Below are positions 24,866 through 27,841 of a stretch of 64,000 nt of DNA, piece after piece (the stretch's first letter is position 1; each line of letters begins with the position of its first letter). The DNA is from Bacillota bacterium (GTDB lineage: Bacteria; Bacillota; UBA4882; UBA10575): the NCBI GenBank assembly GCA_012727425.1, contig JAAYHQ010000030.1, positions 1-64,000 of the forward strand, in the 5' to 3' direction. The notes under the pieces were generated by a model that saw only the letters and a program-made list of their open reading frames with translations, searched no databases and was not told the DNA's origin. A program made the translations under genes and the position numbers.

Positions 24866-26092
24866 TTAACAACTACTGCCCGCCAGGTAGCCGGTGGAAA
24901 AGGCAATCTGGAGGTTAAACCCGCCGGTATAGGCATTGACATCAATCACTTCCCCCGCAAAATAAAGGCCTTTGACCAGCTTCGACTCCATGGTCGCCGG
25001 ATTGATCTCTCTAACCGCGACCCCGCCGGCGGTCACGATCGCCTCTGTAAGCGGCCGTAAACCGGTAATCTCCACTTCTAAACCCTTAAGGATCGCGCCC
25101 AACCGCTCCCGTTCGGCTCTGGTGATCTGGTTGACCGGTTTCTCGGGCGGGATCGCCGCCAGCGAAACAATAACCGGAATCAATGCCCGCGGCAGAAGAT
25201 CGCCAAGGGCATTGCGGAAAATTTTCCGGGCGTACTTGGCAAAATCCCGTTGGAGCCGTAAATCCAACTGTTCGGGCGTGAGCGCCGGTTTCAAATCGAT
25301 GACCAGACGGTAAGCGGTGTTGGCTTCCAAATGGGTACTGGCCGAAAGCACAATCGGCCCGGAGACTCCGAAATGGGTAAATAGCATCTCGCCAAAGTCG
25401 GTGTAGACGGCCTTTCCGGCTTTGGTTAAAACCTTGATCGCTACGTTTTTCAGGGCAAGGCCCGCGACCTCCCGGACCCAGGGCGTGGCGGCTTCCAGCG
25501 GCACCAGAGCCGGTTTCAACGGGGTAATGGTATGACCCAAAGCCGCGGCCAACCGGTAACCGTCCCCGGTCGAACCGGTTTGGGGGTAGGAACAGCCACC
25601 GGTGGCAATCACGACACTTCCGGCGGCCAAAAACTCTCCGCTGTCAAGCTTCACACCACAGACCCGTCCTGTTTCCGCCACGACCGCCACCGCCACCCCG
25701 CCGGTCTTGATCCGGACACCGGAATGGGCTAAAAACCGCTCCAACGCCGCCACCACATCGCCGGCCCGGTCGGACGCCGGAAAAACCCGGCCGCCCCGTT
25801 CCACCTTGGTGGGCAGCCCCCATTCCTGGAAAAAGGCGAGCAGATCCCGGTTGCTAAACCGGTGAAAAGCACTGTATAAAAACTTTCCGTTCACCGGAAT
25901 GTTGGCGATCAACCCTTCCCGGTCGGTGATGTTGGTCAGGTTACACCGGCCCTTGCCGGTGATGAGGAGTTTGCGCCCCAGCCGCTTATTTTTCTCCACT
26001 AAAACCACGGTGCGGCCCCGGCGGCCGGCCGTCCCCGCCGCCATCATTCCCGCCGGTCCACCCCCGATCACTACCACCCGATCCGTCGCCAT
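24866..26092 (-). CDS. NAD(P)/FAD-dependent oxidoreductase, HI0933/BaiN family
   Basis: VVVIGGGPAGMMAAGTAGRRG, GRKLLITGKGRCNLTN, YFAGEVIDVNAYTGGFNLQIAFSTGYLAG; alternative start at 26116. Confidence 0.92.
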   Translation of the reverse strand: MATDRVVVIGGGPAGMMAAGTAGRRGRTVVLVEKNKRLGRKLLITGKGRCNLTNITDREGLIANIPVNGKFLYSAFHRFSNRDLLAFFQEWGLPTKVERGGRVFPASDRAGDVVAALERFLAHSGVRIKTGGVAVAVVAETGRVCGVKLDSGEFLAAGSVVIATGGCSYPQTGSTGDGYRLAAALGHTITPLKPALVPLEAATPWVREVAGLALKNVAIKVLTKAGKAVYTDFGEMLFTHFGVSGPIVLSASTHLEANTAYRLVIDLKPALTPEQLDLRLQRDFAKYARKIFRNALGDLLPRALIPVIVSLAAIPPEKPVNQITRAERERLGAILKGLEVEITGLRPLTEAIVTAGGVAVREINPATMESKLVKGLYFAGEVIDVNAYTGGFNLQIAFSTGYLAGSSC

Positions 26093-26194
26093 CCCGCTTC
26101 CGCCTCCCCGATGCAAAGTATAATCACCGCTGTGCGCACCAATTGCTTTTACATTTTTGCCACCATTATGGCGGAAAAAACAAGAACCGAATCT

Positions 26195-26222
26195 AAAAAA
26201 AAAAGCGCCACCTTGTGGTGGC
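26195..26222 (-). terminator. Rho-independent terminator
   Basis: Minus strand GCCACC-ACAA-GGTGGC-GC-TTTTTTTTTT. Confidence 0.88.
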
Positions 26223-26399
26223 TAACCAATTACAACCTTTAGACTTTAGAGTTACTTAAAGTTACCGGAAAAGATTCACCTACCCCGACTGCCGGCGTGG
26301 TCAGAGGCAGGGCGAGCTTCACCCCTCCGCTGGCGCCTGGCGTCGGAATGACGCTCTGCAAACTCTCTGCCCCCACTAGCGGGTATACAAAGAGTTTGT
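26195..26399 (-). ncRNA. Candidate structured ncRNA or BaiN leader RNA
   Basis: Promoter TTGCGG-N17-TATTAT (26434-26406, minus); hairpins at 26359-26398, 26340-26354, 26289-26310, 26243-26262, then the terminator. Confidence 0.45.
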
Positions 26400-26527
26400 A
26401 CTTAAATAATAACAGATTAGCATCGATCCCGCAATTTAGTTTTCTACCCGAAATAAGGATTTATAGCGTGATTCTTCCTCTTATGTCGTTTTTACCCCGT
26501 TTTCCTCTGTTTTTCGCCCGTCTTGCC

Positions 26528-27841
26528 TTAATTTCCCGTTTGTAGCTGGGCTAATCTCTTGGCGCGCGCGGCCGCCGCCCGGCGGATCTCCTCCTCATCC
26601 CCGGCAAGCACGCGTCCCTCTTTCACCAGCCATTTGCCGTTAACCATCACGGCCGCAACATCACTCCCCCGTGCCGTATAGACCATGAGCGAAACCGGAT
26701 TGAAGCAAGGTGTTAAATGGCTCCGCTCCAGATCAATCATGATCAGATCCGCCTTCTTGCCCGGCTCCAAGCTGCCAATCTGGTCGCCCAAACCCAAGGC
26801 GCGGGCCCCGTTAATCGTCGCCATCTTTAAAGCCGTCTCCGCTGGTAAAACCGTGGGGTCGTTGTTGACGACCTTATGCAAGAGCGAAGCGGTCCGCATC
26901 TCGGTGAACATATCAAGCCGGTTATTACTGGCCGCACCGTCGGTGCCGAGACTGACCAGCACACCGGCCTCCTGCAATTGGGCCACCGGTGCGATGCCAC
27001 TGGCCAGTTTCAAGTTGCTGGAGGGGTTGTGGGCCACCGCCACTTTTTGTTTGGCCAGATAAGAGATCTCCCCTTCATCCAGCCACACCCCATGGGCCAT
27101 TAAGACCGGACGGGAAAAAAGCCCTTGGTCCGCCAGGTAGGCGATGGGGCGCTTCCCGTAGTTCTTCCCAATCTCCTCCAGCTCGTCGCGGGTCTCCGCC
27201 ACATGAATATGGAGGGACATCTGGTAATGCTTGGCGGCGGTGACAATCTGCCGGAGGGCCGCCGGTGATAAAGTATAGGGGGCATGGGGTCCCAACATGG
27301 CCGTAATGCGCCCGTCGGCCTTCCCTTTCCACTTCTTCGCTTGTTCAACCGCCTCTTCCAGTTTGGTTTCGACCTCATCGTCGGAGCCAAGAATCCCGCG
27401 GGATAACACGGCCCGGATCCCCGATACGGCCACCGCTTCTGCCACTTCATCCATGAAAAAATACTGGTCGGCAAAGGTGGTCGTCCCCGAGCAAAGCATC
27501 TCATTGATGGCCAGTCTGGTTCCGTAATAAACATCTTCGGCGGTTAAATTTGCTTCCAACGGCCAAATTTTCTCCTGTAGCCAGGTGTATAGGGGGTAGT
27601 CGTCCCCGAGACTCCGGAAAAGCACCATCGCCGCGTGGGTGTGGGTATTGACCAGTCCGGGCATGACCAGTTTCGTTCGGGCGTCCGTGACCACATCGGC
27701 ATCATCGGCCACTCCGTCGCGCCACGGACCAACTTCGGCAATTTTATCATCAACAATCTTCACATAGGCATCCTGGATCGGCTCGGCCCCTTCCGCCATG
27801 GTCAACAACCATTGACAGTGAATAACCTCCGCTGGCATCAC
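26528..27841 (-). CDS. mtaD: 5-methylthioadenosine/S-adenosylhomocysteine deaminase (amidohydrolase)
   Basis: VMPGLVNTHTHAAMVLFRSLGDDYPLYTWLQEKIWPLE, SLHIHVAETRDE, SLGTDGAASNNRLDMFTEMR. Confidence 0.9.
   Translation of the reverse strand: MMPAEVIHCQWLLTMAEGAEPIQDAYVKIVDDKIAEVGPWRDGVADDADVVTDARTKLVMPGLVNTHTHAAMVLFRSLGDDYPLYTWLQEKIWPLEANLTAEDVYYGTRLAINEMLCSGTTTFADQYFFMDEVAEAVAVSGIRAVLSRGILGSDDEVETKLEEAVEQAKKWKGKADGRITAMLGPHAPYTLSPAALRQIVTAAKHYQMSLHIHVAETRDELEEIGKNYGKRPIAYLADQGLFSRPVLMAHGVWLDEGEISYLAKQKVAVAHNPSSNLKLASGIAPVAQLQEAGVLVSLGTDGAASNNRLDMFTEMRTASLLHKVVNNDPTVLPAETALKMATINGARALGLGDQIGSLEPGKKADLIMIDLERSHLTPCFNPVSLMVYTARGSDVAAVMVNGKWLVKEGRVLAGDEEEIRRAAAARAKRLAQLQTGN

Follow-up and report, generated by a model that had tools for sequence, protein, structure and literature searches.

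Locus and predicted RNA gene

The window, i.e., the whole stretch of 64,000 nt of DNA analysed here, carries on its minus strand a segment of about 200 nt between mtaD (stop near position 26528) and a gene for a BaiN-like flavoprotein. The segment comprises a sigma-70-like promoter, three hairpins (P1 to P3), and an intrinsic terminator (Table 1). Promoter, 5' stem (P1), and terminator had all been placed correctly in a preliminary description of this DNA, and its remark that no open reading frame explains the segment was confirmed, as the reading frames crossing positions 26434-26195 are short and unremarkable and account for nothing. The terminator is one of only two found in 5 kb. Taken alone, the promoter (8/12) is weak, since it falls under our cut-off of 9/12 sigma-70 consensus positions; promoter-like elements were also detected before most homologues, with up to 11/12 consensus positions in relatives. 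Folding of the minus-strand segment (203 nt) revealed a minimum free energy of -81.3 kcal/mol (z of -3.4), and 2 of 200 shuffled sequences were equally stable. A second small hairpin (CCGCCA-UAA-UGGUGG, positions 26174-26160, minus strand) is located between the terminator of the RNA and the BaiN-like gene.

Table 1. Positions of the predicted RNA gene, its elements, and a separate element found in related genomes (window coordinates unless a locus is given).
Feature	Position	Strand	Remarks
Sigma-70-like promoter	26406..26434	-	-35 TTGCGG (26434-26429), 17-nt spacer, -10 TATTAT (26411-26406); 8/12 consensus
RNA gene, copy A, about 204 nt	26195..26398	-	5' end (about 26399) predicted from the promoter, 3' end from the terminator
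P1, 5' terminal hairpin	26359..26398	-	sequence variable, hairpin kept in homologues
P2, long hairpin	26314..26356	-	closed by GAGC (26356-26353) / GCUC (26317-26314); apical stem CGCY/RGCG
P2 apical loop palindrome	26332..26337	-	GGCGCC; in other members GGGCCC, GGUGCC or GACGUC
P3 hairpin	26279..26311	-	CCCUGCCUC(U)GAC / GUCGGGGUAGG; stem strongly covarying
P3 loop	26290..26299	-	CACGCCGGCA; palindrome GCCGGC at 26296-26291, GCCGGC in 40/40 members
Intrinsic terminator	26195..26222	-	GCCACC-ACAA-GGTGGC-GC-T10; stem 26222-26207, ten T at 26204-26195
~390-nt element	L172:1501-1893	+	also L173, L174, L175, L176, L177, L178, L181, L183

Distribution of the RNA family

When 61 genomes were searched at the DNA level, the segment was found at the same place in the family of the window (f1), together with a shorter second match elsewhere in the window's own genome and in relatives. 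These second sites represent a paralogue (copy B), which lies on another contig in the window's genome and has the same layout as copy A, namely a promoter, a variable hairpin, a GAGC...GCUC hairpin, a CUCUUGAC-CACGCCGGCA-GUCAGAG hairpin, and a terminator. Genomes of f1 usually carry two copies of the RNA. Using a covariance model (R1) built from an alignment of f1, f2, and f4 sequences (A1), matches were obtained in 23 of the 29 genomes of the class, including the divergent family f5, and three more genomes were added with a further model (R2), for which five sequences of f5 and one of f4 were used, giving a total of 26/29. Detection was reciprocal in that R2 recovered the copy of the window at an E-value of 2.3e-9 and R1 recovered the f5 members. 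In the class genomes without a match (G017, G023, and G028), two of which are less than 90% complete, a loose pattern search gave nothing convincing. Given its paralogue elsewhere in the same genome, on a different contig, and its homologues throughout the class, the segment is not the orphan that it had been taken for.

Searches with R1 and R2 in other Bacillota (about 380 genomes) resulted in weak matches only and no credible member; among the matches outside the class with E-values of about 1e-3 to 5e-3, five were inspected by eye and gave the impression of coding or unrelated DNA. When about 85,000 species genomes were scanned for the exact pattern, 25 matching stretches came from MAGs of Bacillota, on contigs coinciding with those of the class members found (some designated 'Hydrogenispora sp.'), and ten came from unrelated bacteria; these ten scored 12-28 bits and were taken as chance. 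The exact pattern was not found in any viral contig, no similar plasmid record was found, and a literature search revealed no paper on non-coding RNAs of the Hydrogenispora-like group. Altogether, a conserved stand-alone RNA family almost certainly exists, which in the sequences searched has so far been seen only in Hydrogenispora-like Bacillota, the class of the window. Poorly studied bacteria of anaerobic digesters thereby gain a class-wide RNA family that is missing from Rfam.

Conserved secondary structure

In alignment A1, 19 pairs were proposed, with 92.2% of the cells paired and two-sided changes at 12 of these pairs; none of 500 shuffles reached as many two-sided pairs, and slid controls were paired to about 37%. 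Independent alignment of the f5 set gave the same pairing picture. Covarying stems, named in the preliminary description as support, and conservation in relatives, the lack of which would have refuted it, were thus both found (12/19 pairs and 26/29 class genomes, respectively), and on the basis of these homologues and stems the segment is beyond chance. P1 differs in sequence among the members, but its hairpin fold is kept in almost all of them. The three hairpins, the promoter, and the terminator stay while the neighbouring genes differ between lineages; the terminator was found at most member loci, and the promoter was recognised by consensus only.

The inner stems proposed earlier had to be revised. 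GCGTC/GACGC (26354-26340), described as a stem of its own, proved to be only a local alternative inside the longer conserved P2, and several members are unable to form it. The CTGCC/GGCAG stem (26310-26289) is not conserved, CCUGCC pairing with GGUAGG in P3 instead, and the ACTTTA/TAAAGT stem sits in a variable linker. Within the covarying core, no conserved alternative anti-terminator pairing was seen.

Gene context

In f1, copy A is located after mtaD and before BaiN (genera g1, g2, and g6) or nrdR (g3 and g4); in G009 and G010 the order is mtaD-RNA-nrdR, with BaiN absent downstream. In f2 and in G025, copy A precedes nrdR-nrdD, and in f5 the RNA follows a sigma-factor gene and the downstream gene varies. 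In g1, copy B is flanked on one side by ychF in the opposite orientation and on the other by a PHP-domain gene, which is also present in g2, g5, and g6. The f5 sigma factor (L138-L141, L150-L153), which is always encoded 5' of the RNA, resembles the sporulation factor sigma-K, a name assigned from its sequence; only sigma-70 regions 2 and 4 were recognised by Pfam. Next to the f5 copy of G021, a PyrR binding-site RNA (RF00515, 58.7 bits) was detected upstream of a pyrR-like gene (L141:4195-4290, minus strand).

These contexts bear on the earlier suggestion that the gene for the BaiN-like flavoprotein might have this RNA as its cis-acting leader, i.e., a riboswitch or attenuator. Its position about 100 nt upstream of this gene and the terminator at its end would suit such a leader, as would the checked copy-A loci of g1, g2, and g6, where BaiN is the next gene. 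A cis-leader requires a constant downstream gene or operon, and none was found: in the sister genera (G009, G010) nrdR replaces BaiN, PHP or other genes follow copy B, and in f5 the downstream genes differ and it is the upstream sigma-factor gene that is constant. Moreover, the terminator ends the RNA. Since the contexts vary between lineages and copies, they exclude a leader of a single gene and favour transcription of the RNA as a unit of its own, so that we consider the leader extremely improbable and the least likely of the readings discussed here. The suggested link to SAM recycling found no support either, as genes of SAM recycling do not occur in the vicinity of copy B or of the f5 copies. 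The other proposal, a structured RNA transcribed independently from a promoter and up to a terminator of its own, was supported by the preservation of these elements in unrelated gene contexts.

No terminator was found between mtaD and the RNA, so that read-through from mtaD is possible, and the segment might accordingly be an RNA processed from the 3'-UTR of the mtaD transcript or the mere terminator region of the mtaD operon. The promoter-like elements before most homologues speak against this origin, which we regard as very unlikely, and copy B must have its own promoter because it follows ychF in the opposite orientation.

Comparison with known RNA families

At gathering score, Rfam models revealed only a tRNA elsewhere in the window and no family at the RNA locus, and cmscan of positions 26000-26600 with E-values up to 10 yielded no riboswitch family, in agreement with the earlier reading, in which no known riboswitch had been recognised. 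RT-5 (RF03026) was the only Rfam model with an E-value below 0.1 touching the core. Membership in RT-5 was rejected, as the window reached 25.1 bits compared to a gathering score of 45.7 bits and 0/29 class genomes were over the cut-off; the weak RT-5 matches occurred at some copy-A loci only and at none of the copy B or f5 members. 6S RNA (RF00013) is similar in being a stand-alone RNA with one or two copies per genome in the class. It was rejected as well, since its model did not match at the locus and true 6S genes were identified elsewhere in 27 of the 29 class genomes.

Self-complementary loops

Counting by eye in 40 members, the P2 apical hexamer was found to be GGCGCC in 26, GGGCCC in 9 (copy B), GACGUC in 3 (f5), and GGUGCC and GACGCC in one each. 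It is self-complementary in 39/40 members, one of them via G-U, the exception being GACGCC in L081. For the hexamer duplex, the self-complementary forms had energies of -7.2 to -12.5 kcal/mol, compared to -1.5 kcal/mol for the exception. Pairing the P2 loop with itself in an alignment of 18 sequences (A3) resulted in 98.1% of cells paired and four two-sided changes, and 0/500 shuffles were as good in this test, which ignores kinship between the sequences. The changes of the palindrome represent few independent events, the sigma-factor tree leaving undecided whether GACGUC had one or more origins in f5. The third and fourth nucleotides of the hexamer are adjacent, which rules out a pair between them in the same chain; their joint change thus points to intermolecular pairing. 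Loop palindromes that covary to stay self-complementary, as looked for in homo-oligomers, were found in P2. In P3, the loop palindrome GCCGGC is invariant in all 40 members while the stem varies freely; as the palindrome never varies, it offers no covariation test. Intramolecular pairing between the P2 and P3 loops was considered in two registers and rejected, being possible in some members, broken in several, and without any two-sided change.

Matched palindrome change as an argument for loop-loop homo-oligomers has been made for OLE and GOLLD, where the L9.3 palindrome of OLE switches from GGCC to GAUC or AGCU and L21a of GOLLD from GC to CG (PMC12286853). Together with ROOL, both are RNA-only homo-oligomers, in which other symmetric kissing loops are invariant (PMC12286853). 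The RNA described here is similar to these bacterial non-coding RNAs in its self-complementary loops with internal palindromes that switch together. While OLE, ROOL, and GOLLD are large and ornate, the new RNA, a candidate homo-oligomer, has about 200 nt, three hairpins, and a terminator, and it revealed no Rfam match to any of the three. A further resemblance is to the HIV-1 dimerization initiation site, a six-nt GC-rich palindrome in an apical loop beside a purine, for which the same logic of mutation and compensation applies (PMC7357161); this site is a viral genome packaging signal, and the comparison concerns the way of working and implies no homology.

Proposed self-association

The self-complementarity of two hairpin loops makes it probable that molecules of this RNA adhere to one another. 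Genome comparison has shown the family, its structure, its independence from neighbouring genes, and the palindromic covariation in P2. On these grounds we propose, with a probability of roughly 0.6, a trans-acting RNA that self-associates through the P2 and P3 kissing loops. An RNA of about 200 nt would be transcribed from its own vegetative-type promoter and end at the intrinsic terminator, with P1 capping its 5' end. Pairing between the P2 loop palindromes of two molecules, and in the same manner between their invariant P3 palindromes (GCCGGC), would presumably lead to dimers or chains. The RNA may serve as a scaffold, or it may expose its conserved loops to a partner, either protein or RNA.

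Alternatively, the RNA might be a stand-alone monomer, in which the P2 hexamer and the CACGCCGGCA loop of P3 dock a protein or seed target mRNAs, the palindromes being incidental or mirroring the symmetry of a protein dimer. An invariant P3 loop on a stem free to vary is what any fixed partner would give, and regulatory RNAs commonly occur as pairs of paralogues within a genome. However, a fixed monomeric contact does not predict matched changes of the P2 hexamer that keep it self-complementary, and chance palindromes in both loops are unlikely. We regard the monomer as possible but rather unlikely.

Regarding self-association, the P2 palindromes of the paralogues in g1 and g2 (GGCGCC vs. GGGCCC) do not pair mutually, and the P3 palindrome is common to both. 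It is conceivable, though we put it forward only tentatively and with more doubt than belief, that the RNA belongs to the smallest natural self-assembling RNAs and forms chains or closed multimers, with P2 sorting the paralogues and P3 joining them in these two genera. To our knowledge, natural RNA homo-oligomers are seldom observed, and the RNA-only bacterial ones solved to date are all large. An RNA of 200 nt with two self-complementary loops would be an easy system to test selection for RNA self-assembly in cells.

A separate element upstream of the RNA

A conserved, apparently non-coding, multi-branched element of about 390 nt was identified 5' of the RNA in seven genomes, of which six belong to f5 and one to f2; some genomes carry several copies of the element at other places. 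BLASTn matches were obtained in 25 of 399 genomes of the phylum, other Bacillota among them; the element has no Rfam match and was not found in the window's own family. Its fold revealed a z of -13.7 against shuffles, and an alignment of nine copies led to 140 predicted pairs, 51 of them with two-sided changes. The element looks like an undescribed large structured RNA.
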